Part shown: piece after piece, positions 5,101-43,265 of the stretch
How positions within the stretch are numbered: position 1 is the first letter of the stretch
Layout of the letters: each line of letters opens with the position of its first letter
Assembly: GCF_029168945.1 (NCBI RefSeq)
Contig: NC_083610.1
Location: 47,819,429 to 47,883,428 of the forward strand
Source of the DNA: Cannabis sativa
Taxonomy: Eukaryota > Streptophyta > Magnoliopsida > Rosales > Cannabaceae
DNA: 64,000 bases
Direction of reading: 5' to 3'
Made by a program: the position numbers and the translations under genes
The notes under the pieces: model-generated
Database searches by the model: none
Seen by the model: the letters and a program-made list of their open reading frames with translations, nothing else
Told to the model about the DNA's origin: nothing

Positions 5101-5500
5101 CTGACAATGTTGTTCATATCTCCAATTATGCACCATTGCAACTCCAAACGAGAGGATAAAGTTTGAATAAGATTCCAAGTGTCTTGCCTTCTATTACAAT
5201 TTGGCTCCCCATACATACCCGTTAGCCTCCAATTACCAAATTGAACAGAGTTAACAACAAAGTCAATATAGTGATTTGAGTAACCCAACAAAAGGCCATC
5301 TTCTTTATTTTTCCATAAAAAACCAAGTCCACCAGCCAATCCAATTGAATCTACAGTAAACACCCCATCAAAGCCCAATAATCTAGCAAGCCCATCAACT
5401 TTTACTTTTTGACATTTTATTTCACATAAAAATACAAAATTGGGTTGCTTTTGAGAAATAATTTCTCTAAGGGATTGAATACTCTGTTGGTTTCCAAGCC
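2122..5500 (-). pseudogene. LINE ORF2 remnant: endonuclease, reverse transcriptase, zf-RVT
   Basis: ORF2 proteins nick target DNA and copy the LINE RNA there. From right to left I see an endonuclease/exonuclease/phosphatase-type part near 5378-5040 (CIIGDMNN), connecting pieces at 4832-4202, the RT at 4201-3437 (HPDKSPRSDGMTPAFYK, RQGDLLSPYLFILC, FADDNYLY), a C-terminal region at about 3310-2362, and a zf-RVT-like end at 2365-2117 (SLCPVCSLDDETILHVLIIC). The pieces lie in different frames with stops between them. In the RT motif normally written KLDMSKAYDRVEW, the first Asp is Tyr (KLYMSKAYDRVEW), a further sign of decay. The reading ends where the LTR begins at 2121. Confidence 0.85.
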
Positions 5501-5524
5501 CCCGATAATTCTAACTTATTACAT

Positions 5525-6799
5525 TCATAATTCTTGGCGGGTCTGGTAACCAGAGCCCGCCCCAAATAAGTTTTTTGAACCCACCACATCATTCATCACA
5601 ACATTACTAATGATAACATTTATTTTTATGGCATTTTGCACGTTTTCACTTGAAGAAGTATGGCCCACCTCCACTTCTTTTTCATCACTTGGCCCACTAT
5701 CTTGGTCCATGATCATTCTTCTTCTTTTGGAGTCAATAAAAATCAGCCCCTCATTAGATTCTTCCTCCAACTTTGCCATGTTTTCCTCCCCCATAATCAC
5801 GTCCCCTGATATATGGGATTTAATTTGATTGGCAATCCCATTATCCATGGCTCCTTGATTATTCCTCCCTACAGTCAATCCCGAATTCCTCTCCTGCATT
5901 AAATGGTCACCCTCACTCCCCACTAGCGCCAGAATTACAGTCCGGCCACCACTGTGATTACTTGGAGTCCCACCCGCACGATAACCGACCCTAGTAGCCA
6001 ATCCTGACCTTAGGCATTTAGAACCATCAACATAATTACGTCGTCTCGGAGCCGCTTTCAACTCTAATCCATATCTCTTTATGATCTGATCTTTTGGAGT
6101 GTCAAACAACCTTTCACAAAATCTTTCTGAATGGCCGAGGATTCCACAGATAAAGCAAAACGTAGGTAAATGTTCATACTTAAAACAAACATGGCACACC
6201 AGCCCTCCCTGGATTTCTAGTTTCTTCTTCTTCTTTAATGGAACATCAATTGGAAGCTTGACTCTAATCTGTAAATAATCACGCCACACTCCGGAAAAAT
6301 TATTCAGATCCGATTTGACAAAGGTCTCGATATAATTGCCTACCCCCTTAATAACCTTCTCTAACATAAAATCGATTGTCATGTTATGAAGTTGAACCCA
6401 AAGCTTGAGTTTCGTTAGCGCAACCAGCCGGGGATTCACCCCTTGTGTGACGCGTTCAAAGATTAGTGGAGCTCGATCGAACGTCCATGGACTTTCTTCG
6501 ATAACACGCTCGATATCCACTTCGTGGTAGAACTGAAATAAAAAGAGATTTGAATCTAGTTGCTTGACATATAGACCTCTTCCCAGTTGCCACAACGTGG
6601 CCATCTTATTCTGCATGGCTTGATAGTCAATGGATCGGTTGGTTAAGAATCGACCCACTAGCAGCCATCGATCATCGATATCTGTTAAGCCATCCTCCCC
6701 CGCATCAAACACCAACCCTTTCTCATCTTCATCTTCAATCGTGAAACTAGCATAGTCATCAACTATGTTCTGATGTTGGGATTGTCGTTGATTCATCAT
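5525..6799 (-). CDS. LINE ORF1 protein (DUF4283 plus CCHC zinc knuckle)
   Basis: This frame encodes a nucleic-acid binding, gag-like protein expected to coat LINE RNA. Starting at the MMNQRQSQ methionine (6799) it has about 424 residues; the open frame extends upstream to 6880 but those hydrophobic residues look like chance. In order I see an acidic N-terminus, a DUF4283 region beginning WLLVGRFLTNRSIDY, a second block around LWVQLHNMTIDFMLEKV, and a zinc knuckle FCFICGILGHSERFCE (CX2CX4HX4C). The C-terminal third is polar and low in complexity. The frame is uninterrupted, unlike ORF2, which starts downstream on the same strand after a short gap. Family assignment is secure from the knuckle and its place before an endonuclease/RT. 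Confidence 0.8.
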   Translation of the reverse strand: MMNQRQSQHQNIVDDYASFTIEDEDEKGLVFDAGEDGLTDIDDRWLLVGRFLTNRSIDYQAMQNKMATLWQLGRGLYVKQLDSNLFLFQFYHEVDIERVIEESPWTFDRAPLIFERVTQGVNPRLVALTKLKLWVQLHNMTIDFMLEKVIKGVGNYIETFVKSDLNNFSGVWRDYLQIRVKLPIDVPLKKKKKLEIQGGLVCHVCFKYEHLPTFCFICGILGHSERFCERLFDTPKDQIIKRYGLELKAAPRRRNYVDGSKCLRSGLATRVGYRAGGTPSNHSGGRTVILALVGSEGDHLMQERNSGLTVGRNNQGAMDNGIANQIKSHISGDVIMGEENMAKLEEESNEGLIFIDSKRRRMIMDQDSGPSDEKEVEVGHTSSSENVQNAIKINVIISNVVMNDVVGSKNLFGAGSGYQTRQEL

Positions 6800-7352: not shown

Positions 7353-9751
7353 TTAACTAATAGTCGATGATTGAGATTGAGGGTTATACGTAGTAGTAGT
7401 TGTAGTTGTAGCAGTGTGGCCAAAATCATGATCATGATGATCATACTTAAAACATCTCACAAAACACTTTGCCTTATTATAATCATCATCATGACCTAAT
7501 AATTCATCATTCACAATCTCATTCTCTTCTAATGATCTCCCATTGGTTTCAACAGTGAAAAGATAAGTGATTACCATACCCACCAAGCACACTCCTCCCA
7601 TAATCACCAACGACGCAATCATTCCAATTCCTTCAGGGTATCCTTCTTCCGCTTTATTGTGAGAAGCCCACAAGAACCCTAACCCAACAATGGCTCCCAC
7701 CTTTCCAGAAGCCCCAGATATTCCATGACACGTGGATCTAAACCTTGCCGGGAAAAGCTCAGCAGGAACTATGAAAGTGGTGGTGTTTGGTCCAAAGTTA
7801 GCGAAGAAGAATGTGAGTCCGTAAAGAACCATGAATCCTTTACGGTGGTCGTGATTCTCCCAAAAACTGTAGTAAGGTATACCAATGGAGATGTAAACAA
7901 TGGCCATGACTAGAAACCCCATGAGCTGGATTCTTACCCTTCCTATACGGTCAATGAAGTAGACTGTGAACCAGTAGCCAGGGATGGTGGAGCAGATGGC
8001 TACGATGGCTTGGAGTTTGGCCACGTCATATGCGTCTCTGAATACGCTGACTTCGTTGGCCGGCTTAAGAAAGTTGTTGTAGACGTGGGACTGGAATAGG
8101 TTGCTGCTGTAGAAGACAATGTCGACGAGGAACCAGGCGGCGGAGCAGGCGAAGAGATCCCGCCCGTGGCGGCGGAAGAATGTTTTTGAGAAGAAAGGAT
8201 ATTGGTGTGTTTGGTTGTTGGGGAGTTGTACAAGTGGTCCATCTTCTGTGATTTGGCTCATCGAAACATCTAATACCTTCTCCATGTCCTTGGCTGCTTG
8301 TACCAAATTTTGCTCAACCAAAGCTGTATATCTGATCAACATAAATTTATATAATTTCTACTTAATTTAATAATTTGATAAATATAAAAAATAATGATGA
8401 TTTTTGTATAAATAATACTAGTTAAAATGATTATTAGCTAAATTAATGTATAAATCCATGAAAATAATAAATTAAATGATGACTACTACTGGTCAATTAG
8501 AAAGTTATTACGAGTGAGTACTCTAATGTCACATATATATATATGACTTAATTCATAACAATATTGTCTACATTCCAATAAAAATATAATAATGATAAAT
8601 TTAAATCACACTCTTTCATTTATCTAATTACTAAAACTTCATAGAATTATCACTTGAGATAACTATATGTGTGAATATTATGATTATTATTATCATTATT
8701 ATAACGTTCAACAAATTACAGGCAAGAACTCATTAATCTAGCAAATGAATCATCATCATCACACCACTACTAATTAATTATTACTATAGCAAATATTTAA
8801 AATTATAAAATAAAATAATTAATTATTAATATGATATAAATATTTTCTTAACTATATATAGATCGCATATATATGTATATATTTATACATGCATGAACGA
8901 GTCAAATCAGTTAATGATGATTTATTTAACATATAGGAATAGGATATATTTAATTAAGAGTTAGTCAATGATGATGATGATGATATATACATACATATTA
9001 TATATATAGTACTTGTTTACCTGGCAGTTTCAGGCATCATCATACGCCAATAATAGGTCATGGCAGCGGGGATGGCACCAATCATCACTATGATTCTCCA
9101 AGCAATATCAGCCTCTTCCGGCGTAGCAGATCCACCCTTCAGTCCATTATTATTTGACGACGAAGAAGAAGAAGAAGTCTCCTCAAATATCCTACAAACG
9201 ATCATGGTCACCATGGAGCTGGCCAGAATCCCAATCCCCTGCATCGAAAACACAGCCGCTATAAACGACCCACGTGTCTTCTTGTTAGCAAACTCAGACA
9301 TAATGGTGGCTGATAACGGATAGTCTCCACCAATCCCAACGCCGAGCAAGAAACGGAAGAATCCAAAGCTAGCAAGAACACATCCCCTCTTTGTGCATAC
9401 TGAGAATCCACACCCTATGGCGCTAAGCACCATCATCATCAGTGACATGCCGTACACCCTTCTCCTTCCTATCAGATCCCCTAAACGCCCAAACACCAGC
9501 TGTCCTATCACTGTCCCCAAAAGGGACATGCCAACCATGATGGAAACCACTGCCGGCGGGACCTGGAATCTGAGGTCTTGGGGGTTTTTGGTTTCTTGGT
9601 AGTAAATTCGACCAAGGAGTCTCATGATTGGTGGTATGCAGAAGAGGTCGTAGGCATCGGTGAATAGCCCCATCCCTGCTATGATTATGGCCTTGAAGTG
9701 GTACCATTGTGTTCGTGCCGTGTCAAGAGCCGACAGTACTTTCAAACCCAT
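7353..9751 (-). CDS. PHT1: High-affinity inorganic phosphate transporter, PHT1 family (MFS), two exons
   Basis: This protein would import phosphate with protons across the plasma membrane. Exon 1 is 9751-9021, the intron 9020-8332 (CAG|GTAAAC to GATCAG), and exon 2 8331-7353; joining restores PETA-R-YTALV, as in PHT1 proteins, and gives 569 residues. Seen in order: N-terminus LSALDTARTQWYHFKAI, FTDAYDLFCI in TM1, the MFS loop GRLGDLIGRRRVYG, the PHT1 signature GGDYPLSATIMSE, and ETNGRSLEENE after TM12. The start is the only Met in family position. The protein is longer than the usual 520-540 residues because of a Ser/Asn run between TM5 and TM6 and a tail rich in Asp, His and a Thr run. The N-terminus recalls the PHT1;8/PHT1;9 side of the family; that placement is inference. 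It is the only host gene I can support here. Confidence 0.93.
8332..9020 (-). other. Intron of the PHT1 gene
   Basis: About 690 bases, AT-rich, with a GTAAAC donor and a GATCAG acceptor on the minus strand. It contains short AT and ATG repeats but no transposon termini that I can recognise. Confidence 0.85.
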
Positions 9752-10355
9752 ATCTAGATCGATCGATATCTCTCTTTGATGAAATATTGAACTGATTGAT
9801 ACGACTGTGATATGATCAAATATATCTATGGTGTCCCCCTAGACAACAATAACAAAATCCAAATCCATATATATATATATATATATATATGTGTGTATGT
9901 GTTACGAGTAACAATATTTATTAAATTAAAGTGTATGACTACAGTTCAGGTGCATTAATTTCGTAGCCAAATATATATGTAATCGAAAGGTGTTGACTTG
10001 TGTAGTCAGTTAATATTCCAATAAGATGCGGATCCTATTACTGCAACCGCGTCATATTTCTATATTTTAATACACATAATTGATCCCCTTTCTCATCTCA
10101 CTATTTACATATTCCATCATTGAGTATTGCTACATTAGCTTAAAATATATATTTTTAATTTTTTATCCCATTTACTTTGATACTTTTGATTAAATTTTAT
10201 ATTTATATATATTCTTTCTCCCAAAAAATAAAAAAAAAATTAAACAATATCATATATTCATTGCCCATTTTGAACAATGATGTTTATAAAGTTGGTTTGA
10301 AATGTTAACCAAAATGTATATGTAAGAAAGACTACTCCATGGGCAACTCACTTTA
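9752..10355 (-). promoter_or_regulatory. Upstream region of the PHT1 gene
   Basis: About 600 bases between the PHT1 start codon and the first MITE. It holds an (AT)n run at about 9866-9890 and is otherwise AT-rich. I looked for a phosphate-starvation P1BS site (GNATATNC) and saw none by eye. Promoter function is inferred from position only. Confidence 0.4.
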
Positions 10356-18349: not shown

Positions 18350-18358
18350 AAAGGAAAA

Positions 18359-18381
18359 GGGTTATTTACATAAATATGGGA
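18359..18381 (+). repeat. Left terminal inverted repeat of the MULE
   Basis: Starts GGGTTATTTACATAAATATG directly after the AAAGGAAAA duplication. It pairs imperfectly with 29078-29101, the shared core being AAATATGGGA. Confidence 0.75.
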
Positions 18382-19353
18382 AAATATACTATAGTTTACA
18401 TATATATGGCAAGAAAACTTAATGCCACTAAATATGGCATTCAAAACAAAAAAGTTAACAAATATGGGAAATGACATGTCTAATACCATAAAAAAATATT
18501 AAAAATCAAATCAGATTTTTTCTCCTTTAAATTTAAAAACTAACCAAAAACAGAAAAGCTAAAAACACTCTCCACTTTTTTTCTCTCTCTACAATTTCAC
18601 GATAGCTTCTCTCTCTCACTGTTAATTCTTCTCTCTCCCATAGCGATTCAACCTGCGATCAAAATCGCAGTCAAATTTTCTTGGATCGAAATCTGCAAGC
18701 ATCAATTAATATTTTCTCCACACCGATCAATCAGTTCTCCAGCAAACAATCTACACAAATCAAATCTGACAACAACAATCAAACTCATCTCCAATATCCA
18801 TCATCGGCAGCAACAATTGAAGAATACTCAAGAGAAATTCACATCATCCTATCTACACATATTACAAGGTTAGATAAATCATAATAAATGATCATCTTTT
18901 CATGATATATTCAATGATTATATATATATGCATTATGCAAAAATTCAAAACAACTCATTTTTATCATAACATGTTTCATTATCATCTTCCTATAAAGAAA
19001 AAAAAATGTATATATAAATTAATGTAAAACTATAATTTTTAATAAATATATATATAAGTACTATATAATATCACATAAAAAACAATAAATTTGCAAATAA
19101 ACTTGAATTGAATACTGAAATAAATCAAATACGAAACCAGTTTAATAAACTACACTATTAGACAATATACTTTATACAACAACTGAAGATAACTTTAAAA
19201 AAAAAACAAAATATGAAAATTAAAAAAAAAAAAAACCAGTTACCATAACTAAAATAATAACACTACAACAAACGAAACTGGTTTTTTTTTTATATAGATG
19301 CATACGAAACTGGTTTTTTTTTTTTTTAATGATATGTTGTAATTTATTCAGGA
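18382..19353 (+). promoter_or_regulatory. 5' region of the MULE transposase gene
   Basis: Contains a CT-rich leader-like segment (18570-18640), a short frame at 18681-18884 that I do not trust, and then AT-rich sequence likely to be a 5' UTR intron ending at TTATTCAG before 19352. Four ACCAGTT/AACTGGT motifs lie at 19136, 19235, 19276 and 19308. Promoter role is inferred from position. Confidence 0.45.
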
Positions 19354-22017
19354 ATGGAAACAATCATGTGTGTTATTCAATATGGAGGATATTGGACAGA
19401 TGACAATAACTACCAAGACTACACAATGACTGGACTGCTAATACCAACAAAATGTTCTCTGAAAGAATTAGTTGAATTGGTAAAGAATGAGATCAACTGC
19501 AACACACCAATTGAAATGAACTACCAGCTAAGCCCCGGTTCATTACCAATGAAGATCATAAGTGACAACTCACTATTGTTTTACATTGAACTAAGAAAGA
19601 AGCAGCTTGGAGTGAGCGACTCTCCACTTTGCATCACAAGAATTGAACAGCATGCAATGCAACTAAATCCACAACAATTCACTGACACTGGAACAGTAAC
19701 ACAAAACACCGATGTTCAACAACTGGTTTTACAAATTACAAACCAGCCATCATTTCAAGACATAGAATATGAAGATGAGGCATCCGAAACAAATAACCAG
19801 TTCCTATCAATGTCAAACATATTTCAGGTAGCTGACAATGTTGCTGATTTTATAATTGAGAAAACAGAAGAACACAAGAAGAAAAGGAATGAAGAAGAGA
19901 AGGAGATTATAACAGATCATAGGGTTTTCAAAATTGAAGAAGGACAAATTTACAAAGATAAAAAGATGCTGAAATGTGCACTATGCTTTTATGCTATATT
20001 GCACAACTTTCAATTTAAAACAAAGAGATCGGAACCAAGGGAGTACCTGGTTACATGTATTGATGATAACTGTAACTGGTTACTTAGAGCATCAAAATTC
20101 AAGAATACAACAACATTCAAAGTGAGGAAGTATGTCCAGGATCACAAATGCTCATTGGATGTAATCATGGGAGACCACAGACAAGCAAATAGCAATATCA
20201 TTGGAGAAATAGTAAAAAAAAAATTCCTAGATATCAAAAGAATACATAGACCAAAAGACATTGTAATGGACACACTATATGATTATGGGGTGTCAATGGG
20301 ATATCAAAAGGCATGGAGAGCAAGAGAAAAAGCATTAGAATTGGCAAGAGGGAGACAAGATGACTCTTATCAACAGCTACCAATGTACTTACACATGCTG
20401 AAAGTATCAAATCCAGGAACAATCACACACTTGGAAACAGATACAAAAAATCGTTTCAAATACTTGTTTCTAGCATTCGCAAATTCAATAAGAGGCTGGA
20501 AACATTGTAGACCAGTCATTGTCACAGATGGAACCTTCTTAAAAACATCATTTGGCGGGACTTTATTTTCAGCTTCTACAATGGATGCAAACAACAACAT
20601 TTTCATATTGGCATTCGGAATAGGGGACTCAGAAAATGATGACTCTTGGGATTGGTTTTTCAACAAGATAAGAGAAACATTTGGTGATAGAGAAGGTACA
20701 ATATCAAAAACTGGTTTTATGTTTATTTTTATATATACATAATATATATTTTTTGAATGGTAACAAGTTACAATAAAATTCAAATTCAATAAAAAAAATC
20801 ATCATTAATCACTTTTAATCCTGTTGAAGAAACCAGTTACTGACATAATACAAATATATATATGTCATACATAACTAAAACCAGTTTTAACATGCAGGAT
20901 TAACAATAATATCAGACAGACATAAAAGTATTGAAAAAGCAGTGAAGAATGTTTACCCGGACCACTTTCATGGAGCTTGCATATTCCACTTGCTTAACAA
21001 CATCAAATCACACTTTGGTGGACATGGAGATGAGCTCACTATAAACTTTGTGAAAGCTGCCAAAACATACAGGGTCAGCTCATTTGAGCATTACATGTCA
21101 GAAATAGACAAAATTGACATTCGCATAAGACCTTACTTGGAAAATATAGGACATCATAATTGGACTAGAAGCCACTGCCCAACAAGGAGGTACACTATGA
21201 TGACTTCAAACATAGCAGAGTCAATCAATTCTGCAATCACAGCTGCAAGATCAGTGCCTATTACATTAATGATTGAATGTCTAAGAAGTTTAGTTCAAAA
21301 ATGGGTGTGGAAGAATGGAAATGAAGCTAATGGAATATTCACAGAAGTATCTGTTGAAGCTGAAACAGTACTTAGAGATAATCTTGTTAAGGGAATGAAG
21401 TACCAGGTATGTATACTATATTTATAATAAGTTGAGAAACCAGTTATTACATATATAAAGAAAATACATATTAATACATAAAAACCAGTTACTAACATGT
21501 GCTTATAATTTTTCTTACTTGTTACAATTTCATATATAAACAGGTTGAAGCAATAACTACTATACTATACCAAGTAAAAGTGGTAAACAAAGGGGATTTC
21601 ACAATAAACTTACTTGACAAGACATGCACATGTAGAAGGTTCCAACAAGATCAGATACCATGTGCACATGCAATAGCAGTTTTTGCTAAAAGAGGACTAA
21701 AAACTTATGACTATGTGGCTGACTACTACAAAACATCAACTATGAGAGCAACATATGATACAACCGTACATCCTCTACCTAATGAAAGTGAATGGAGACT
21801 ACCTGAGAGCTTGGAGAAGATTGTCATGCCACCAAAAACAAAAAAGACCTCAGGGAGACCTAGAAAAAAAAGAATCAGATCTAGAGGAGAACCAAAAGTT
21901 GTAATGAAATGCTCAAGATGTGGACAGCTTGGACACAACCGACGAACATGCAATAATCCACAGATTTACAAACAAACCAATCGGAAGAAACAGAAGATGG
22001 ACACAAAGCAACAATAA
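19354..22017 (+). CDS. MULE transposase (mudrA-type), three exons
   Basis: This enzyme cuts and moves the element by recognising its terminal inverted repeats. Exons 19354-20695, 20898-21406 and 21544-22017 join in frame at GT-AG sites to give about 774 residues with no stop. Domains in order: an N-terminal PB1-like part (METIMCVIQYGGYW), a MuDR DNA-binding domain around KMLKCALCFYAILHNFQFK with C-C-H residues to about 270, and the MULE DDE domain beginning VIVTDGTFLKTSFGGTLFSA and continuing across the first junction at LTIISDRHKSIEKAV. A SWIM zinc finger (CTCRRFQQDQIPCAHAIA) and a C-terminal CCHC knuckle (CSRCGQLGHNRRTC) follow. The DDE aspartates in VTDGTF and SDRH are visible. It is convergent with the DUF1985-Ulp1 gene. 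Length and domain set are typical, so the frame may still be functional. Confidence 0.92.
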
Positions 22018-22796
22018 GTAATAGAACAAACACTTGGAAAAAAAAGTAGCTTTCAAAAATTACAATTACAAAAGCTACAAACTGGTTACTTTGCTATTAT
22101 GACATTTGATAAAATTGCTTTGAAACTAGATTTTTTTTATTATTATTATTTTATTTGCTTTTTTTAGAGAGGAAAATAGATATTTGATATTAAGGCAGCT
22201 TAAAAATAATTTTTTTAAGATTTTACCAAGATAAATAATATATAATTATCATATTTACTATAAATATTAATAAAATTAAAGAAACTGGTTATGCATCAAC
22301 AATAAAAATTACAAAATATAGATACCTTGAAATTTGAATAATATGTGCCTCCTAGTACTCGCAAAACACACCATATCCTACAAAACAACATTAAACAAAA
22401 CAAAAAACCAGTTATAACCAAATTAATAAACAAAAAAAAAAACACCCACAATACATAACCAGTGAAAAAATTACCTTCACAAATTTCTAATAAAATAATA
22501 AACAACATTATAAAACCAGTTTTACCTGAAATACAAATTAGCTACAAAAATAGATTTTTAAAAATTGAAAAAATTAACGCAAAACTACTTATAAAAACCA
22601 CTTTTTGGATATAACATCTATTTCCATTAATAACCATAACACAGTGTGTTTAACATATATCCAAGATAACAAAAGAGAAACAAAAACATTTAAACCGTTA
22701 AGTATCATTGTCATTACTAAAACCAGTTATCTAAATGAAATAAAAAAATTAACAAAAAGACTGCTCTAGAACATCAACATCCTCTTCTCAAACTTC
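22018..22796. other. Intergenic region between the convergent MULE genes
   Basis: AT-rich, without coding frames, containing the 3' ends of both transcripts. It holds five exact ACCAGTT/AACTGGT copies (22080, 22283, 22407, 22515, 22732). Confidence 0.7.
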
Positions 22797-25700
22797 TTAC
22801 CCTTTGCCTTTAGCATTTTTCTTCTCCTTTAGTTTCTTTGACTTCTCCTTTCTGACTTGAACATCATCTTCAGTCTGATACCCACCAATCTGTTTCCTCC
22901 AAGCATGAGTAAATAAACTAACAGCCAAATCATCTCTGTAAGTTGCAATCCTATCAGCCATATTTTGTGGTATCTCATTTATCTTCCCATTGATGAACAA
23001 ATCAGCAAACTTAATCACAAAAACTCCACAATCACTGTATTTAATAAAAGTTTTAACAAACAAAAATATAAAAATATCAAACATAAAATATATATTATAA
23101 AACTGGTTATAATAAGAAAATTAAAGGAATATTAATAAACAGTATTAATAAAACTAGTTTCTATTATAGAGTTAGAAAATTTACCTCTTCTTTTGAGTAG
23201 GCAGCCCCTTAATGAAGGTATAATTAATAGGCTCCCTAATTCCCACAGAATATGGACCAACTTCCATGCTAAGATCTGGCCTCGATGCATAAAAGTTGAG
23301 GAATTCCAAGAAATAAGGCAACATCACAGAATATGCCTTAACATGGGGCAAGGCCTTGTTCTGATTGCGTAACCCAGATAAAGAGTTGTAAACATTAAGC
23401 ATCCTGTCCTTGATGCTAAAATGGATCAAAATCCAGTGAGATTGATCTTTCACATGAACAATTATAAGAACATGATCTGTGAAAACCCAAGCAGTATTTG
23501 AAAACAAATATTCTCCAAGAATATAGCGAGATATAACACTATCAAAATTAATTGTGCTCGGATTGGAATGATTTTCCAAAAATTTGTTATATTCGCTGAA
23601 AATCAACTGATCAAACACACAATCGGTTGTTGTTATCCTTTGGTTCAAAGATTGATCTTGTTTAACTTTCTTTCTTAGATAATAGAAAGCAACATTCATA
23701 TGCTACACAGGGAAAAAAAAAACAACACAAGAAACCAGTTATTAAACAAATAAACTAAAACTCGTTATTCAAAAATAAAACACATAATAAAACTAGTTTT
23801 ATACAAACATTAAAACAACAAACACAAAAAATATAATGTATAAGAAAACAATTAAAAAAAACTTACAGAATCTGAAAGGAACTTCCCACAAGTTTGGAGT
23901 GTGTAAAACCACATTTTCTCATCAATTTGAATAAAACTGAAGTCCATAGGGGGATCAATCTTATTATCAATGTCGGAGTATTTCTTCTTAGTTCTACATA
24001 TAAAAAAATAAAGAAAAAATTAGAAAGCTAACAAAAACACATATATACAAAACGCAAAATAAAAAACTAAAAAACTTAGATTACCTTTTCATATTTATAT
24101 TATGCTCTAACCATTGAATGAACTTCAAACACTGCTCACTAGTGTTATTATCTCCAATCTCATTTTTAAAAGGATTAAGCCCATCAACTATCAATTTATC
24201 TCCAATCAAAATATTCATCAAGCTGTCTTTGCCTGAATCAGATGATCCAAAATCAGTTATAAAAGGAGACAATACAATAGAACTCTCCTTCCGAATGCGC
24301 TATGGGTTTTCTGGCGTTTGATAAGAATCATCAAACACAACCATTTCCATATTATTATTTTTTTCACAAGAAGGCTGATCTTTTGAACACAAAACGTCTT
24401 TGATTGTATTGTCAACAACTTTCATAACATCAGGAGACAAATAATATTGACCATAATCAACATTGTCCTCATGAACCTACATAACAAAAAGAAACTAGTT
24501 ATATAAAAAGGGAAAAAAAAAGATTCAAAATCACATAAACTGGTTTCAAAATATAACAAAAAAATGGTTAAAACATGTACCGCAGACTTAACACTGGGAA
24601 CTGACAATTCTAGACCACCAACATCATCAGACAAATCCCGATAATAAGCCTGTAAAAAATTAAATAATTTGATTAAAAGATAAGAAAACCAGTTTCATAC
24701 ACAAAACAATAAGAAAAAAATAAATATTTTGACTAAAAGAGAAGAAAACCAGTTTCATACAAAAAACAATAAGAAAAAACATAAGGGTAACTATATTAAA
24801 AAAGTCATATTAACTTCAAAAAGCTATTTCAACAACAACATAAAAAAAATAAAATAATGGAACAAAAAATAACTTAAAAAACGGTGCCAACATTAAAACT
24901 AGTTTAATCAACAACAAATTAAACTAATTCTTCAATTTTTTTTTTTTAAAAAAAGAACAGTTTCTTTAAAAAAACATAAAGGAAAAAATACAATACAAAA
25001 AGAAAAATTAATCAAAAAATAGTAACAACTTAAAAAAAAAAAAAAAAAAAAACCAGTTTCAATGTGTCAATTATACTAAAGAATAATTACATATAAAAAA
25101 TTAAAAGAAACTAATAATTTCGTTAATATAAACAATAATAAACGATCTACCTCTCTATCAGAAGCACCAAACAAATCGGTTGTGTCCATCTTTTCATGAT
25201 TTTTGGAGGTCATCTTTTCAATCATCCCACTCAACTTAGCCAAATCCCCAGAGAACTCATCTTTGAAGATTGCCATCTCAATACGAATAGATGCTTGAGA
25301 ATCTTTAATAAATGATAAATTTCTGCAAATATTCTCAAACTTCTCCTCAAAATCCTACAAAAGACACAAAAAATATTAAATAAGATAATATGAAATGTTA
25401 GCAAAACAATTTGTAAAAAAAATGTTTGAAAACTGGTTTCTTACCTTCTCATCATCCACACTCTTAGGAAGATACACGGGTTGAAACTTAAAATTCTTCA
25501 AAAGACGATTACGTCTCTCAGCATCAGTAAGACGAAAATCATCTACAATGACCTGTTAAAAACCAGTTTCTATACTATAAAAAAGGCCAAATAAAAAAAA
25601 TCTAATAGTAAAACCAGGTACAAAGACTATTATACCTCAGGGTTATTGAAAACCTTTTCGAGTAAAGTCACAAAACCAGGAACATCGAAACTTTGCCAAT

Positions 25701-27143
25701 TAAGTATTCGGCGAAACTCAGAACCTTTCCTCACACAATATTCAGGGGACAAGCTAGGAATAATCTCATAAAGCCAAACATGAAAGGGAACAACAAATCC
25801 AGGAAGTTTGTACTTCTTGAAATTCTTACCCTTTGCTTCAAGTTCATCAAATATAGAATTACCATCCTTAATAGCAATTGTCAAATAGTAGAATGTCCTC
25901 TCCCAAAGCATTTTTCCAAATGCAAAACCATTTAGAACATCTAGATAATCATCACCATTAACAAGCCCAAAAAGAAAATTATCTACCTTTTTGTCATGTG
26001 TAAATCCAAACAAGTAGCAAGAGAGTAAATACACAACACCCATCTTAACTACATCATCATCATCAATGAGAAATTCTTGATCAAGAAAAACATCTCTCAC
26101 ATCCCTTCTTGTGACTTTGTCAGTAATGCCAAAGTTAGGAAACATCCTAGATTTAAACTTTAACATCTTCTTTTTGCTAAGAGGTTTCAAGTCGTATTGA
26201 CCACCACAATTAAAACCAGTTATAGCGGAAAACTCCTCTACTCCAAATCTAACGGCTTTAGAACCTATCTTATACCAACACTCCTGATCATCCCTCTCTG
26301 TGTTAAGTTGCCTTAATAACATAAGATGCACCAATTCTTTTTGAAAAACAAGTGTATGCATATCAAACAAAAACCCAAATGGCGTCTTTCGAAAGATTTT
26401 TTCTTGCTCACGTGAAAATCTTAACTTCATTTCAAGGAGGACACTTGTATCGTTGAAATCTTGAGCAACACCTCCGAATCTCTTTTTGGGTTTAATTTTA
26501 AAATAAAACACCTGAGATATAAATTCAAGAAACAAACAGAAAAACAATTTAAAATATCAAATAACAAAAATAAACAAACAAATACAAAAACAAAAAAAAA
26601 AAGTTTCACAAAAATCAAAACAACTTTGATGTACATAAAACCAGTTTAATAATGAAATATATAACCTACAAATAAATATATAAGGGATAAAAACCAGTTT
26701 CACAACAATAAAACTAAATTATAACAAAATATACAATTGACAAAAAGAAACCAGTTTCCTGTTATAATTACCGTAGGGGCAGCAGGAATAGATGAAACAC
26801 TCGGTTCCGTCGGGCGCTTTCTTCTTGTCACAGACTTCAACAGGGTTTTCTTTTTATCTTTACTTATAAAATCAACAATATGCTCATCATCTATGGAATC
26901 AGACAACTTTTCCTAAAAAATAACAAAAAAATAATGTAAATAATAATGAAACATTTTCAAATTAAAAAAAAAAAAAAGAAAAAAAAAACATATCTTAATA
27001 CAATAATACAAACACATACCATGTAAAATGTATAAACATACCATATTTTTCTTTGCTTTACCCTTTTTTGATATACCACTAATATTACGAGAAGATTTTC
27101 TTTTACCGCCAACGACTGAACCAGTTTCAGCAACTTGTTCCAT
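22797..27143 (-). CDS. DUF1985 - Ulp1-like cysteine protease gene of the MULE, ten exons, damaged
   Basis: Exons on the minus strand: 27143-27042, 26912-26772, 26511-25636, 25552-25445, 25354-25151, 24649-24581, 24476-24085, 23994-23867, 23702-23185 and 23034-22797, all with GT-AG sites; about 925 residues. Exons 1-2 are Lys/Arg-rich. Exon 3 is a DUF1985-type domain (FGFLFDMHTLVFQKELVHLM, FSAITGFNCG). Exons 8-10 are a Ulp1/C48 protease: HWILIHF holds the His, LPTQKK the Gln, and DCGVFVIKF the Cys. The catalytic Asp expected in VYDSL is Asn (VYNSL). Exon 7 has an in-frame TAG at 24302-24300, and an extra T near 23940 breaks the frame in exon 8. Ulp1 enzymes remove SUMO, and DUF1985 is found in transposon-borne plant genes. 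This copy is probably inactive as a full-length protease, but the N-terminal part up to the TAG stays open. Confidence 0.8.
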
Positions 27144-27877
27144 CTGTTAAAAAACATAAATACAAAGTGAAAACGAAATAAAATAGAAAGGATGATAACA
27201 AACACAAATAAATACAATTTAATAATTAAAGTCTAAAACTGGTTTATGAGCTCTTCCATAGCTACCAAAATTTAATAAATAAAACCGGTTTATAACAAGT
27301 ACAATAAAGACATTCTTTTTCTAGAAAAGATAAAATAAAGAGTATGAAAAATAGTAATGGTTGAGTAAAATAGTAAAATGTCAAAAGCAAGACCATGAAC
27401 AGAGAATATGGTGGGCAATGGTTGAGTAGTGTGACTCGACATGTGAGGATCTATGCATCTTATATAGACCCTGTTACATGCGAATTTGATCAAACCCATA
27501 TGGATAAGCTCACCTTTATTCTTGATGATGAGATAGGAAACTGCAGTGTATATGTTTAATGATGATGAGATACAAACTGAGTGACAATGAAATTAACATA
27601 AAGGAATGTAACATCTGGAAAACAGTTCAACAACCAAAGCATTACTCATATGATGTGTGTGTGGCATGGTACATCAAGCAATATGCAAAAGACACAAACA
27701 ATGATCAGAAATCTAATCAACAGTTGTAGTGTTCAACAATTTCCAACTTAAGATAAGACTTTGAAACAAAGATTGGGTCAGAAATGTTTAAGAAGATAAA
27801 ACAGGAAAAACAATTAGATCTAACAACGCTTACCCATTCAACGTTGAAACTCACACTCTTCACTATTGATCATTACC

Positions 27878-27963
<86 letters not shown>

Positions 27964-28800
27964 ATTGTATTAACTCACAACCATAAATCTCAAAAAAGTA
28001 CAACAAAACAAAACACATCAAAAAAGTACAACAAAACATAAACACATCAAAAAAGCTAATAAACAGTCCCCCACTTATTCTCATTCTGCTCTACATTTTG
28101 ATAACAAAATTTTTAACTCAAAATAGCAACCGATACTCTAACACCCATTCCCCCAACACTCGACACACACCTACATAAACTCAGCAAAAACAAGACAAAC
28201 AACACCTATTCAAAAGCACAAAACTTGCTTCACAGCATCATTATGAGGCTTGAAAAATTAAGAGAACAACATCAACTTACCACCTTATTAAACACAACAA
28301 AAAATGAAACACAAAACCACACACCCACCAACAAAAATAAATTCAAATATAAAACTAGAAATTTAAAACAACCCATAAAAAACAAATATAACCCGAACCC
28401 ATAAATCAACATAAATAATATAACATTTCCATATTTGAAACTTGTAACAACAACAACAACACTAAGATACCCACTAATCAAAAACATAAAAAAAAAAATC
28501 AAAAGATAATATGAACAAACCTTATAGCAACTCCAATCCACACCACAAACGAAAATGCAAACCGGTTTTCGCCGATGACTTGCGTGAGGATGACGCCGTC
28601 GAAATATGAAGGGAAAAAACTGTTAAGAAAAAGGAATAAAAAGAAGAACAAAACAAAGATAATGGGATGAATATCAACGAAGAGAAGAAAAAAATAAAGA
28701 GAAAGAAACCCTAGAATGGGATGCACAAACTGGTTAGAAGAGAAACTTTGAAATGATATGAAAGGAAAATGGTAGATGAGTAATAGAGGTACTCATTACA
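27144..28800 (-). promoter_or_regulatory. 5' region of the DUF1985-Ulp1 gene
   Basis: No supported coding frame. It contains a long (CT)n tract, A-rich sequence with repeated AAAAAAGTACAACAAAACA words near 27995-28045, and a GC-richer patch at 28558-28605. The patch may be a first non-coding exon. ACCAGTT-type motifs are sparser here (27237, 27284 variant, 28561 variant, 28728). Promoter role is inferred from position. Confidence 0.4.
27881..27958. repeat. (CT)n microsatellite
   Basis: About 39 uninterrupted CT units upstream of the DUF1985-Ulp1 gene; on that gene's strand it reads (GA)n. Confidence 0.97.
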
Positions 28801-29077
28801 TGCAGAAGTTGAAAAGACAAAGGCTGGTTTTGATTTTTTTTTTATTTTTTTTCTTAAAAAAAAAAGAACAACCCATGAAAAAAAAACGGTTGGCAAAAAA
28901 TAATATAAAATTACAAACATACCCTTTCAAATTGGGCTGAATACACAATATGGGATTTAAAATTGAATTTACAAAAATGTGGCAAAGTAAATACCATATA
29001 TAACTTTAAATTTAAATAAATGCCATATAAGGGTGGTAAACTTAAAAAAGCCATATTTTTCAAACTTTTTTGTAGAA

Positions 29078-29101
29078 TCCCATATTTGGTGTAATTTTCA
29101 C
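29078..29101 (-). repeat. Right terminal inverted repeat of the MULE
   Basis: On the minus strand it reads GTGAAAATTACACCAAATAT then GGGA. It is followed on the plus strand by the AAAGGAAAA duplication at 29102-29110. Confidence 0.75.
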
Positions 29102-29110
29102 AAAGGAAAA

Positions 29111-29591
29111 AGGGTCCATGTGGGCCTCTAAACACTTGTGAAATCTTGAGCATTGACACCTACCTTGGAATGTAAATTCTAACATTGGATCATTATTGAT
29201 AGCTTTGTAAACAAATTAATTTGACTAAGTCATTTTTTAAGAAAAACTCTACCATATTCTTTTCAAATAAGAGTTTATAATTTGAATGTTTATTCATAAA
29301 AATAACAAAGACAATTTAGATAAAACATTCTTAAATTTCAAAAGGGCTATGTATCGAGGTACTGTACTTTAATGTTATAAATACTACACACTTAAATTAT
29401 GAAATACAAATTAGACAAACCACTATATTACACAAGCTAATAATATAAAGTATTAAATTAAGGTTATTCTCAACCTTTGACTACTTGCACTACATCCAAG
29501 AACAACCTTGAAAGATGTGAGCTTTTGGATACCACTTCCACCAGATGGGACACCAATACCACCGTCAAGGGAGAAGACAAGCACATGTGAA
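29111..29591. other. Spacer with a GC-richer exon-like patch
   Basis: Mostly AT-rich. 29475-29590 is GC-richer and on the minus strand is open for about 35 residues, including DGGIGVPSGGSGIQKL. It could be a leftover exon of a host gene broken by the neighbouring insertions. I do not recognise the family. Confidence 0.4.
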
Positions 29592-37223: not shown

Positions 37224-40200
37224 CTACTGGTAATATTTTCTGAGGTGATCGGCATTCCAGGCTCTTGGGACGGTGGTTCCGTCCATTCTTTTTAGTTTGT
37301 AAGTGCCGGAACCGATCTCGTCCTCGATTTCATATGGTCCTTCCCAATTTGGTCCAAGTACCCCCACTCCGGGTTCTTGGGTGGCTGGGAAAACCCTTCT
37401 TAGGACCATATCCCCAATAGCGAATTTTCTGTTTTTAACTTTAGAGTTAAAATACTTGGTCACCTTCTTTTGATAAGCAACCATCCGTATTTGAGACTCA
37501 TCCCGGAGTTCTTCGACTTGATCCAAAGCTTCTTGGAGCAGTGCCTGATTAGTGGCAGGATCGTAAGTCGTCCTCCTGTGGGATGGGAATAATGTTTCTA
37601 CCGGGACCATTGCTTCGCAACCGTACGCCATTGAGAAAGGCGAGTGGCCGGTTGTGGTTCTGGGGGTCGTCCGGTAGGCCCATAATACCCTTGGCAATTC
37701 TTCAGGCCAGTTATTTTTGCAGGCCAACAGCTTCTTTTTCAAGGTGACCTTTAGGATTTTATTGACTGCTTCCGCCTGGCCGTTTGTTTGAGGCCTGGCT
37801 ACCGCGGAGAAGCTTTTCACTACTCCGTGTTGGTTGCAGAAGTCAGTAAATTCCTCGCAATCAAATTGCTTTCCATTGTCTGAGACTATTTTGTGAGGCA
37901 AGCCGTATCGACACACTATGTTTTTGATAACAAAGTCCAATGCCTTCTTGGCAGTTATTGTCTTCATAGGCTCAGCCTCTGTCCATTTGGTGAAGTAGTC
38001 TACTGCTACTATTGCATACTTTACCCCTCCTTTCCCTGTAGGTAGAGACCCGATGAGATCTATTCCCCAAACCGCGAAGGGCCAGGGACTGGTCATCAGG
38101 GTGATCTCGTTTGGAGGAGCTCTCGGTATGTTCGCGTACCTTTGGCCCGAGTCACACTTTTGGACATAGTCTATACAATCTTTTTTCATTGTTGGCCAGA
38201 AGTACCCTTGCCTCAATATTTTCTTTGAGAGGTTGGGTCCTCCCGTATGATCTCCACAGAACCCTTCATGGACCTCTAGCATGATTTGTCTAGCTTCAGG
38301 GTCCGATACACACCTTAAATAAGGCATGTTGAGTCCTCTCCGGTAGAGAATTTGGTCCATCATTACGTAACGATGAGCCTGATACTGAATCTTTCGAGAC
38401 AATGCCCTCTCTTGGGGCAACTCACCTGTGGTTATGTATTTTATGATGGGGACCATCCAGCTGGGTTCTTGCCCAACCGTTAGTGTGGTCTCTTTTATTT
38501 TGATGCTTGGCTCTGCCAAGCGTTCCACTGGTACTACCCCCAGCTCTTCGATTTCGCTATCCGAGGCTAACTTAGCCAAACAGTCCGCGTGAGCGTTCTT
38601 TTCTCGGGAGATCCTTTCTATTTTATAGTCCGCGAACTCGTGGAGCAGTTCTCGGACTATTGTTACGTACGCGGCCATCCGTTTGCCACGAGTTTGGTAT
38701 TCTCCAAAAACCTGGTTTACGACCAGTTGAGAGTCACTGTAGACTTCTACTCTTTTGGCTCCTACAGCTTTTGCCAATTTCAGTCCTGCTATCAAGGCTT
38801 CATATTCGGCTTCATTGTTTGAAGCTGTAAAATCAAATCGGAGTGCTGCCTGGAGCCGCAGTCCAGTTGGTGATATCATAGCCACTCCGGCTCCTGAACC
38901 GTTCTCATTAGAAGATCCGTCTACAAATACCCTCCAGGTGGGGATTGGTGGTGCCAGCGTATATACTGTTGCCTCGGCTTCATTGCATTCAGTAATGAAG
39001 TCTGCCAAGGCTTGGCCTTTTATGGAAATCCGGGGGACGTAGTGTAAGTCGAATTGACTTAGCTCCATCGCCCACTTGAGGAGTCTTCCGGATGCTTCAG
39101 GCTTCTGGAGAACTTGTCGGAGCGAATGATTGGTTAGGATTTTGATTGGATGGGCTTGGAAGTATGGCCTCAGCTTCTTTGACGCCATCAGGAGGAAGAA
39201 TACTAATTTTTCAATGACCGGGTACCTTGTCTAAGCCCCTATTATGCGCTTACTGACATAATACACGGGATGCTGAATTTTCTCTTCCTCCCGGACCAGG
39301 GCAGCGCTGACCGCGTGCTCGGAGACGGCCAAGTAAAGAAACAAGTCTTCTCCAAGGATAGGTTTCGATAAGATAGGGGGTTTGGCCATGTGGTCTTTTA
39401 ACCTCTTGAATGCCTCCTCGCATTCATCCGACCATTCGAACTTCTGGCATTTCTTTAGCACGTTGAAGAAGGGTATGCATTTGTCCGTGGATCGTGAGAT
39501 AAAGCGACTCAGTGCGGCTACCTTTCCGGTCAAGCTCTGCACGTCTTTATGCTTCTTGGGGGATGGCATGTCCAGGAGAGCTTGGATTTTCTCCGGGTTT
39601 GCCTCGATCCCCCTTTGGCTGACTATGAAGCCCAGGAATTTTCCTGACTTGACCCCAAAGGTGCACTTTTTTGGGTTGAGCTTCATACCGTATCTCCGGA
39701 CGACTTCGAAGCATTCTTCTAAGTCGCTTGCATGGCTGTTGCATGCTTTGGATTTGACGAGCATGTCGTCCACATACACCTCCATGTTTCGCCCCAGGAG
39801 GCCTTTAAACATCCAGTTAACCCTTCTTTGATAGGTTGCTCCGGCGTTTTTCAGTCCGAAAGGCATGACTAGATAGCAGTATACCCCCTTATCGGTCCTG
39901 AAGCTAGTGCACTCCTGGTCTGTCGTATGCATTTTTATTTGGTTGTAACCAGCATAGGCATCCATGAAAGACAGCAGTTTAAATCCGGACGTGGCGTCTA
40001 CCATCTGGTCGATCCTGGGTAGCGGGAAGCAGTCCTTTGGACAAGCTTTGTTTAGATCTGTGAAGTCTATACAAACTCGCCAAGTCCCGTTCGGCTTGGG
40101 CACCAGGACAGGATTGGCCAGCCATTCCGGATAGTATACGTCGCGGATCATGCCGCTGGACAAAAGTTTGTCCACCTCTTTCTCTAAGGCCTCGGCTTTC

Positions 40201-41030
40201 ACCGAGTCGAGCGGGCGTCTCTTTTGCTGTACAGGGGGCATGTCCGGGTTGACATTGAGTACATGTGTGATGACATGAGGGCTTATGCCGGTCATGTCTT
40301 CTTGGCGCCATGCAAAGATGTCGATGGCGCCCTTCAGTGTTTTTATTATTTTGTCCTTTTCCTCCGGATCCAGGCTTTTCCCTATCCGGAGTACTTTGGT
40401 GGAGTCGTCGTCGCACACTGGTATTTCTTCGACGTCCTCCATTGGTTCCACGACCCTTTCGGATCCTATGCGAGGATCCAACTCATCCTCTTCAGCCTTC
40501 TCTGTCTCAGGGGACTCCCGGACCATGAGTACGGGTAGGTGGGTGGCAACATTGTAACATTGTCTGGCTTCTCCTTGATTTCCCCTTACAGTTCCGACCC
40601 CGGCTTCATGGGTAGGGAATTTTAGGCACAAGTGTCGGATTGAAGTAATTGCACCAAAGTCCACTAGGGCTGGTCGGCCGAGGATCGCGTTGTAGGCTGT
40701 CGGACAGTCTACTACCACGAAGGTGCAATATTTGAATGTGCTCTGGGGGGTATCCGGGCACAGGGTAACCGGGAGCCTTACTTTTCCCATCGGGATAAGC
40801 GTCGTCCCGTTAAACCCTGTGAGCTGTGACCCACTAGGCGAGAGGTCCCGGTCGGTCAACCCTATCACAGTGAAGGCTTCTTTGAAGAGCAGGTTCACGG
40901 AACTCCCATTGTCAATTAAGACCCTAGCCACCACTTTATTTGCGATGGGGGTCTCTATGACCAGTGGGTCGTGATGAGGAAAACGCACCGTCTTGGCGTC
41001 TTCTTCCGTGAACGTGATGGGTTGGTCCAT
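37224..41030 (-). CDS. pol: Gypsy pol: protease, RT, RNase H, archaeal-type RNase H, integrase; one nonsense codon
   Basis: pol copies the RNA into DNA and inserts it. From the ATG at 41030: protease (VVARVLIDNGSSVNLLF), RT (DAYAGYNQIKMH, YVDDMLVKS), RNase H, a second RNase H with its four acidic sites (FVDGSS, NNEAEYEAL, YSDSQLV, NAHADCLA), then integrase with DDE residues in WGIDLIG, VSDNGKQF and GQAEAVN. The frame is open from 41030 to 37224 except for TAG at 39233-39231, where RNase H normally has Glu before TRYP. In the integrase zinc finger the second Cys is Gly (KCDSGQRYA). The same frame stays open upstream of the ATG (RKRYAEAAKHNEVWEV), so pol was once continuous with gag. Confidence 0.92.
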
Positions 41031-43222
41031 CAGCCGAGGCCTTTGAGCTGGGAGTTGAGTAACTTCCCATACCTCATTGTGCTTCGCGGCCTCGGCGTAT
41101 CGTTTTCGCTCCTTGCGAGTGTTCCCTCAATATGGGGACCTCCGGAGATCATAGCTACCCGCCCATTAGGCCGGGGCGGCAGCCCGGGAATATGCTGGGC
41201 GTCACCTGCGGGAGCAGCCGGAGCCAATACTCCTGCTGTACCCCCTGGTGTTCCCGGAGGCATACCCCCAGCCACCTGCCCCGGATTAAGGTGGGGAAAC
41301 CTATTTTTGATCCACTCATAGATGTGGCCCAAACGGATTAGGTTTTCAATCTCGTCTTTGAGATTTTTACACTCATTGGTGCTATGACCAATGTCGTTGT
41401 GGTACTCGCATCTTTTACTCGGATCTCTCCGGGAGCTGTCTTTGTACAATGGCTGTGGTCTCCGGTAGTGCGTATTTTGCCTAGTGGCAAAGTACACCCG
41501 TTCCTGGGAGTCTGATAGCTCCGTGTACTGAGTATATTGGGGTGTGTACCCCTTCTTCTGGCGCTTTTCTCCCGTTCGGGTGCTGCCTTTGGAGGACCTT
41601 TTGCTCCTCGACCCCTGGGTAGGGCCTGTTAAGCTAGCAGTCGGGGCAGCCTGTGAAGGAGCTTGTCCATTCACTCCGGACGGGTTGCCATAATGGGAAG
41701 ATGCTGGCGCCAGAGCTTGGCCCTGGCTGTACCCGGGGGTAGCAGAGAACTGTATGCCACTCACCTGTGGAGTTGCGGCCGGGGTAGTACCCGAGGGCGA
41801 TACTCCGGGCCTGTACCCTGCTATCCCGGTGGGATAATAGCCTCCATAAGCTACGATCTGGGCTTCCTCGAGGTTGATATACTTTTGGACTCTTTTCTGG
41901 AAGTCCTGGAGGCTAGCAGCCCCCTCTTGTTGCAATTCATTCCAGAAGGGAGTCCCAGTGCGGATTCCTGCCTGGAGAAGGGCAAGCTGTTGTCCGTCAT
42001 CAACCTTCTTGGTCTTCGAGGCTTCCTCCCGGAACCTCTTGATGTAATTCTTCAAGGTCTCGGTGGGCAGTTGCTTGATATTGGTCAAGGCACTAACCTC
42101 CAAGTTAACCTTTCTGGCGGCGACAAACTGTCTCCGGAAGTTGGTCTGGAGCTTGTTCCAACAGCCCACGGATCCTGGTTCCAGCTTTTTGAACCATTCC
42201 TCCGCTGACCCGCTCAGAGTGAGGGGGAAGCACAGGCATTTGGCATCATTGCTGACCCGCATGACTGTCATGACATGGTTGAACCGCGACAGGTGGTCAC
42301 TGGGATCGGAGTTCCCGGTATATGCCGCCATTTCAGGCATCTTGAAGTTTTTAGGGAGCTCTGCCTCCAGGATGTGCTTGGCACATGGCTCCCGATCCTC
42401 GCTGTCCGAGTCGGAGTCGTCTCCCTTCTGCCTCCGGGAGACTCGAGCAATGTCTTTTCGAAGTATGGCGAGTTCCGCCATAATCCCTTCGTTTAACGTA
42501 CCCGAGGAAACCACAGGCCCGTATCTTTTTTGGTCAAGGTGATCCCGGAGGTCACCTTGATTCCCATTGATTTGATTTCTCAGATCAATGGGAGGACCTC
42601 TCTGTCCTCTTCTCCCTCTACCCCCTGGTTCCTGGTGCACAGAAATGCTTTTTCGGTCCCCTCGATCCTGAGGGCCAAGACTCCCTTTTTGGGGCTTGCC
42701 CTTCTGCGGACCTTTCCCTTTAGGGAAATCCGAGCGGACCCTTCGCGGATCCTGCACCTTTTTCTTTCGCCCAGGGGTAGAAGTAGGGTTTTTTGTTTGA
42801 TTTTCCTCAGCAGGGTACCTTATAGGGCTAGGTTCCCTAGATTTTTGCTGCTGGGAATTAGGCGAAGACGTCGCTGGCTCTCTATTGAGCCCAGCGGTCA
42901 TTGCCTTGGGGTGCACGTGAATACCAGCTGCCTCCATGGCTTTCTGCATGGCTAGCATCACTTCCTGCATTTTCTGGTTTTGCGCTTTCTGAGCTTCGAT
43001 CTCAGCTTCATGATCGATAGGTTTTTGTCTGAGAAGCACCAGTTCTGAGTAACTTCCCTCGTCATAGGCATACTCGTCGAGGTTCCCCTCGTAGTCCTCG
43101 TCGGGGACTATTTCTCCTTCTTCCTCGGACTCCTCTGCCGCTCTTGAGGCCACATCTTCCTCATTTGGATCTTGAGCATCTTCCAGAGGGCGAGGCTGAC
43201 GTGTACTTCTTGTCTCCACCAT
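41030..43222 (-). CDS. gag: Gypsy gag polyprotein
   Basis: Gag forms the virus-like particle. The frame from MVETRSTRQPRP has 730 residues: an acidic N-terminus, a basic Pro/Arg-rich region, the retrotransposon gag domain (around AAYTGNSDPSDHLSRF to LALLQAGIRTGTPFWNEL), a Gly/Pro/Ser-rich stretch, and a zinc-knuckle-like CEYHNDIGHSTNEC. It stops at TGA 41032-41030, overlapping the pol ATG as TGATG. The last 30 residues look out of frame. After HIEG near 41122 the pol frame carries the expected family sequence, so a one-base loss there probably created this stop. The TGATG overlap is then accidental and not a designed restart signal. Confidence 0.92.
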   Translation of the reverse strand: MVETRSTRQPRPLEDAQDPNEEDVASRAAEESEEEGEIVPDEDYEGNLDEYAYDEGSYSELVLLRQKPIDHEAEIEAQKAQNQKMQEVMLAMQKAMEAAGIHVHPKAMTAGLNREPATSSPNSQQQKSREPSPIRYPAEENQTKNPTSTPGRKKKVQDPRRVRSDFPKGKGPQKGKPQKGSLGPQDRGDRKSISVHQEPGGRGRRGQRGPPIDLRNQINGNQGDLRDHLDQKRYGPVVSSGTLNEGIMAELAILRKDIARVSRRQKGDDSDSDSEDREPCAKHILEAELPKNFKMPEMAAYTGNSDPSDHLSRFNHVMTVMRVSNDAKCLCFPLTLSGSAEEWFKKLEPGSVGCWNKLQTNFRRQFVAARKVNLEVSALTNIKQLPTETLKNYIKRFREEASKTKKVDDGQQLALLQAGIRTGTPFWNELQQEGAASLQDFQKRVQKYINLEEAQIVAYGGYYPTGIAGYRPGVSPSGTTPAATPQVSGIQFSATPGYSQGQALAPASSHYGNPSGVNGQAPSQAAPTASLTGPTQGSRSKRSSKGSTRTGEKRQKKGYTPQYTQYTELSDSQERVYFATRQNTHYRRPQPLYKDSSRRDPSKRCEYHNDIGHSTNECKNLKDEIENLIRLGHIYEWIKNRFPHLNPGQVAGGMPPGTPGGTAGVLAPAAPAGDAQHIPGLPPRPNGRVAMISGGPHIEGTLARSENDTPRPRSTMRYGKLLNSQLKGLG

Positions 43223-43265
43223 TCTTGTGAAGTCAAATGCTTGTTATGTAGCAGCTTTCCTCAGC

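Follow-up and report, generated by a model that had tools for sequence, protein, structure and literature searches.

The element and its two genes

A Mutator-like element (MULE) of 10,743 bp lies at positions 18359 to 29101 of the window, a 64-kb stretch of Cannabis sativa DNA analysed here at its full length, and carries 32 copies of a short word, AACCAGTT. The element was delimited by its MULE transposase domains and by an exact 9-bp target-site duplication (TSD), AAAGGAAAA, at 18350 to 18358 on the left and 29102 to 29110 on the right, and its ends (18359 to 18382 on the plus strand, 29078 to 29101 on the minus strand) form a degenerate inverted repeat with 13 of 24 positions matching in an ungapped comparison. 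Two genes were recognised inside it, their models being drawn by eye from splice signals. The transposase gene (plus strand, 19354 to 22017; exons 19354-20695, 20898-21406 and 21544-22017) has an open frame of 774 residues and an intron in its 5' untranslated region (UTR) at approximately 18869 to 19351, also with splice sites judged by eye; its product contains the Pfam domains DBD_Tnp_Mut, MULE and SWIM, with PF10551 and PF03108 above cut-offs. The second gene (minus strand, 22800 to 27143) combines DUF1985 with a Ulp1-like Peptidase_C48 domain in ten exons (27143-27042, 26912-26772, 26511-25636, 25552-25445, 25354-25151, 24649-24581, 24476-24085, 23993-23867, 23702-23185 and 23034-22800) and has an in-frame stop at codon 559. 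DUF1985 is held by the exon at 25636 to 26511 (PF09331, E = 3e-17, above the gathering score), and the Ulp1-like domain by the last two exons, 22800 to 23702 (PF02902 above cut-off).

Over its first 558 residues, the DUF1985 product matches an annotated Cannabis protein (P0001) at 99%, and the domain was likewise above the Pfam cut-off in all eight relatives scanned, its AlphaFold model from 18 sequences having a mean predicted local distance difference test (pLDDT) score of 39.8. The Ulp1-like part keeps the His and Cys of the triad and has Asn in place of the Asp of SENP1, and a PDB search with it returned weak matches to SENP1 and SENP5 only (best E = 0.005). All homologous proteins listed in two protein searches, with about 8,000 candidates scored in each, were from Cannabis sativa, and viral contigs searched with the transposase gave no match. 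Pfam, the TSD and word counts thus bear out what the original prediction had read from the letters: a MULE with a DUF1985 domain, a Ulp1-like part and a motif array.

Other copies of the family are present in the same genome. The DUF1985 exon at C4:65819317 encodes 292 residues identical to those of the window copy, an identity which points to recent movement or duplication of the family. At C10:68048833-68052143 (G000) the distance from the DUF1985 exon to the transposase exon is 1.1 kb versus 4.9 kb in the window, so that an internal deletion is probable there, and the transposase exons at C6:66067888-66069228 (99% identity) and C5:74318315-74319655 (96%) of G000, near which no DUF1985 match of the window family is found among the matches listed, are possible derivatives without the DUF1985 gene.

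A repeated word in non-coding DNA

The window contains 34 copies of ACCAGTT, 32 of them within 19136 to 28734 and two outside (38722 and 43038), precisely as had been counted in the original prediction; in 100 dinucleotide shuffles of the window the mean was 8.0 and the maximum 17. Each of the 32 copies inside the MULE belongs to the 8-mer AACCAGTT (spanning 19135 to 28735), which is absent from the approximately 53,200 bases of the window outside 18501 to 29300 and of which an order-2 Markov model of the MULE expects 0.85 copies. The six variant sites that had been noticed alongside them were identified as four AACTAGTT and two AACCGGTT, giving 38 sites of the form AACYRGTT, and words one mismatch away from AACCAGTT have four copies or fewer each inside the element. 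When AACNNGTT is counted in the MULE, the central dinucleotide is CA/TG in 32 cases, TA in four, CG in two and another in five.

The sites are mostly non-coding, as predicted: 33 of the 38 lie outside exons even though 47% of the MULE is coding (two-sided binomial p = 1.2e-5, the coding split resting on the by-eye gene models), and 12 of the 14 non-coding segments hold at least one. The transposase gene has four AACCAGTT sites in its 5' UTR intron (19135 to 19315; at 19135, 19234, 19276 and 19308), three in intron 1 (20709 to 20886; at 20709, 20831 and 20879) and two in intron 2 (21438 to 21490; at 21438 and 21483), and five more lie between the two genes (22080 to 22728; at 22080, 22283, 22406, 22514 and 22721). 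The introns of the DUF1985 gene hold two sites at 23101 to 23159 (23101 and 23152, the latter AACTAGTT), two at 23733 to 23798 (23733 and 23791, the latter AACTAGTT), two at 24493 to 24545 (24493, which is AACTAGTT, and 24538), four at 24687 to 25058 (24687, 24747, 24897, which is AACTAGTT, and 25051), one each at 25431 to 25438 and 25561 to 25568, and three at 26639 to 26756 (26639, 26692 and 26749), with four further sites upstream of its start codon (27237 to 28735; at 27237, 27283, 28560 and 28728, the middle two being AACCGGTT). The coding sites comprise three in exon 1 of the transposase gene (19721 to 20081; at 19721, 19795 and 20074), one in the DUF1985 exon (26214 to 26221) and one in the first coding exon of the same gene (27119 to 27126). 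The leader region of the DUF1985 gene also contains a perfect (CT)39 repeat (27881-27958), and the stretch around it, 27300-28550, has no site.

The flanks of the AACCAGTT sites differ, and a 60-bp tandem duplication in an intron holds two of them (24687 and 24747). The sites nearest to the termini are 776 bp from the left one and 366 bp from the right one. The spacing between neighbouring sites is 40-62 bp in 10 of 21 gaps (p = 0.0002), a range picked post hoc and therefore descriptive.

Elsewhere in the window, frames judged by eye resemble a LINE (long interspersed nuclear element) reverse transcriptase (2362-4201), a phosphate transporter gene (7353-9838), a Gypsy-type retrotransposon polyprotein (long minus-strand frames, 37224-43243) and a CACTA-type transposase (58174-59777).

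Related families and non-autonomous elements

There are at least 134 DUF1985 matches in the same Cannabis genome, and DNA was looked at for 13 of these loci, including the window, one locus drawn accidentally as a control (L020) and one covered in part (L038). Three loci chosen by DUF1985 identity contain the same word, with 15 copies of AACCAGTT in L029 (82% identity), 16 in L037 (49%) and 12 in L030 (42%; two of these, at 206 and 3933, are in an identical 32-base context). A further element with 49% identity, represented by L014 and L015, has 20 copies; it was fetched for its motif cluster and is not an unbiased test. Eleven random 10-kb control regions (110 kb) contain five copies in total. 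Sites inside the footprint of the protein match number 4 of 23 in L029 (footprint 62%), 4 of 26 in L037 (47%) and 3 of 18 in L031 (51%); the non-coding bias in L014, L015 and L030 is not significant.

At greater divergence the picture changes. AACCAGTT is absent from L031 and L036 (35% DUF1985 identity) and from L033, L034, L035 and L020 (30-35%), and L032, also at 30-35%, has three copies. L031 and L036, which are near-identical copies of one family, instead repeat the word AAAGTAACC(WG): AAGTAACC occurs 15 and 14 times, respectively, and AAAGTAAC 18 times in each. Most of these sites are AAAGTAACC half-sites, one is a full palindrome, AAAGTAACCAGGTTACTTT, and others come near it. Same-orientation sites in this family are 21, 22, 30, 31 and 52 bp apart, near multiples of a helical turn. 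Genome-wide, AAAGTAACCWG has 738 matches versus 589 for the reversed pattern, and it forms clusters at two copies of the family as well as elsewhere on contig C1. In L038 (C9:28679000-28683200), where DUF1985 is 40% identical over residues 3-173, 4.2 kb contain eight AACCGGTT and five AACCAGTT, a possible shift of the central dinucleotide. The proposal that families with diverged DUF1985 carry other motifs was favoured wherever the outcome was clear, with the same word at 42-100% identity, a different one at 35% and a shifted centre at 40% over a partial domain; four further loci showed no clear word. In a DUF1985 tree of 12 loci, the branch separating the AACCAGTT loci from the others has a support of only 0.61.

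A k-mer scan compared the best 8-mer score of each locus with those of 15 control regions. The window scored 38.0, followed by L031 (19.0), L036 (18.8), L037 (17.1), L029 (16.6), L038 (15.4), L014 (13.3), L030 (12.4), L015 (10.4), L035 (10.0, mainly from one local run), L020 (9.0), L034 (6.1), L033 (4.7) and L032 (4.2). The controls reached 23.5, 16.3, 8.7, 7.4 and 6.8, the rest being lower, and the top two are suspected to be driven by tandem repeats. L020 (C2:5000001-5010000) was dropped from the controls, as it overlaps a DUF1985 match; it has 33 copies of AATAAAC against 5.3 expected and 29 of GTAAAC, the latter being frequent also in L032 (23) and L033 (17), and AATAAAC/GTAAAC may tentatively be regarded as a further word.

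The word is also found in elements with no match to either protein. Of the initial 100 matches to AAACCAGTTW along contig C1, 63 are in seven clusters of at least four, all of which were fetched: one is the autonomous element of L014 and L015, four are non-autonomous elements (L011, L012, L013 and L016) and two are L009 and L010. L011 (3724-6091, nine AACCAGTT, with an offset 8-base match at its flanks), L013 (3642-5978, 12 AACCAGTT, exact 9-bp TSD) and L016 (3808-6149, ten AACCAGTT, exact 9-bp TSD) are about 2.35 kb long and 93-95% alike, and L012 (about 2473-6450, 13 AACCAGTT) is about 4 kb long; in L013 three sites are 19 bp apart. All four have end regions in common with the window MULE, over approximately 115-170 bp per end at 77-85%, and their interiors show no match to that element or to its two proteins. 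L009, with four sites, matches the window MULE at the left end alone (70%), and for L010, with five, no match to it was found. Since AACCAGTT is kept in the non-autonomous elements where the surrounding sequence is not shared, these elements suggest that it is the word itself that counts. Contrary to the original prediction, the word is accordingly not specific to this MULE: it recurs in sister families and non-autonomous elements, and genome-wide there are 13,678 matches to AAACCAGTTW versus 8,778 for the reversed control.

Candidate readings of the word

Systems of a comparable kind are known from Arabidopsis. VANC proteins carry DUF1985, as stated in the original prediction, and according to Hosaka et al. 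2017 (PMC5735166) they bind short motifs within non-coding DNA of the family to which they belong and strip methylation from it; the motif bound by VANC21 in non-coding DNA is YAGTATTAY, and the targets of VANC6 contain AGTTGTCC or AGTTGTAC. VANDAL21/VANC21 and VANDAL6/VANC6 resemble the Cannabis case in pairing a MULE-type element with a DUF1985 protein and in repeating a short word, different between families, in their own non-coding DNA; they differ in the words themselves, in placing their sites in tandem repeats where the Cannabis sites are mostly dispersed and near-palindromic, and in that the Cannabis gene also has a Ulp1-like part. A MULE whose VANC-type gene includes a Ulp1-like domain is a feature shared with Kaonashi/KIU, the Ulp1-carrying VANC genes of MULEs without terminal inverted repeats, although the Cannabis family and its words are different; a 2026 review (PMC13317346) states that such genes act on motifs of their own group only, inducing hypomethylation there, and that the Ulp1 part shows strong conservation across eudicots. 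VANDAL21 has a three-gene layout (VANA, VANB and VANC), whereas two genes were recognised in the Cannabis MULE; no third gene was found among open reading frames of at least 80 residues, a search that could miss a gene with short exons, and the element is for this reason not classed as a VANDAL proper. VANDALs proper have no long terminal inverted repeats, which may be set beside the 13 matching positions of 24 at the Cannabis ends. The primary paper on the Kaonashi/KIU genes is Sasaki et al. 2022. The consensus of Grainyhead/CP2, an animal and fungal protein family, is AACCGGTT and resembles the main word of L038, probably by chance, and no relation is claimed.

What is directly observed is the array with its non-coding bias, the same word in related families and in non-autonomous elements, and a different array in a family whose DUF1985 is more diverged. 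Together these observations form the pattern that a VANC/KIU-type system predicts and look like a self-recognition code. We consider it probable that the Cannabis MULE encodes a sequence-specific anti-silencing system of this type. The DUF1985 and Ulp1-like protein would recognise the near-palindromic AAC-YR-GTT, mainly as AACCAGTT, at the 38 copies, of which 33 fall in introns, the leader or intergenic DNA; its binding across the non-coding DNA would remove or prevent silencing and keep DNA methylation off the MULE and the non-autonomous elements that follow it, and this state would in turn allow the transposase to be expressed and the elements to move. The DUF1985 protein is thus the presumed reader of the word, dimeric binding is suggested by the palindrome, and methylation loss is the expected outcome.

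Several observations weigh against such a system or fit it poorly. The stop at codon 559 of the window copy lies upstream of the Ulp1 part, and the DUF1985 exon of L029 has two stops. The mostly dispersed layout departs from the Arabidopsis tandem repeats. Helical phasing, published for Arabidopsis, is absent among the sites of the window MULE (p = 0.63) and weak in a pool of eight loci (71 distances, p = 0.016, post hoc), being strong only in the L031/L036 family (eight distances, within one element type). In the k-mer scan, the window MULE alone scored above all 15 controls; the arrays of L029, L037, L038 and L031 exceeded just 13 or 14 of them, and L032, L033 and L034 were within the usual control range with no clear word. 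Between L029 and the window, 10 of 27 alignable non-coding positions have identical words, no better than the background of 102 in 303 8-mers of equal G+C content (34%; p = 0.43). Seventeen of the 27 still read AACYRGTT in L029, and 16 of 21 base changes from the window to L029, read from the alignment table, are C to T or G to A, an excess that would fit the decay of a methylated copy.

Association alone also does not distinguish between the two proteins of an element, DUF1985 and transposase, since they diverge together in broad terms. The word could accordingly be a transposase binding site spread inside the element, a reading that gains from the non-autonomous elements keeping both the ends and the word. 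However, the distances of 776 and 366 bp leave no site near the termini, and the element at C9:28684257, whose transposase is 62% identical over the whole exon-1 query, still has AACYRGTT, while the transposase of the other-word family is 61% identical over residues 111-446 and about 40% in its N-terminal part, values of unequal coverage that are not like-for-like. On balance a transposase site appears unlikely. It is less likely still that the word is a site for a host transcription factor, accumulated by the elements to promote their expression. Some MYB sites are similar to it, and enhancers could act from the leader and introns in which sites are found. Against this stand the 12 of 14 non-coding segments in use and the existence of at least one related DUF1985 family that has another word and no AACCAGTT, the latter not being expected of a common host factor. 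A host mark for silencing the elements, rather than for their escape, seems very improbable; PMC10398659 reports that targets of RNA-directed DNA methylation overlap VANC targets in Arabidopsis VANDALs, yet a host silencer should select against the word, whereas the word is highly uniform in an element copied recently. Equally improbable is an origin of the array in local duplication or base composition, to which the two sites in the 60-bp duplication and the two controls scoring 16 and 23, perhaps via tandem repeats, would lend some weight, given the 32 copies against the Markov expectation, the differing flanks and the same word in elements without detectable shared internal sequence.

Within the anti-silencing system favoured here, a broader and distinctly more tentative proposal is that Cannabis MULE DUF1985 families read a shared palindromic code, AAC-NN-GTT, as dimers. 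Specificity might then switch through the central dinucleotide (CA in the window family and two others, CG in that of L038) and through half-site length (AAAGTAAC in L031/L036), and the non-autonomous elements might be hyperparasites, retaining nothing but their ends and the array of words.

The kind of system is already known from Arabidopsis VANDAL/VANC and from Ulp1-carrying VANC genes, and it is the Cannabis family and its candidate words that are new. Neither they nor the relatives' words nor the dispersed near-palindromic layout were found in the literature searched, in which Cannabis was little used as a term and the letters of the word were not queried. Sequence-specific anti-silencing has been worked out experimentally in Arabidopsis, and a single genome from another plant order now supplies related families whose candidate words differ (AACCAGTT, AAAGTAACC(WG) and a AACCGGTT-rich array, others being tentative). 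With matched proteins and natural non-autonomous followers at hand, the co-evolution of protein and word becomes testable by swapping proteins and words, and the words may possibly serve as new short recognition sequences for targeted epigenome editing in plants.

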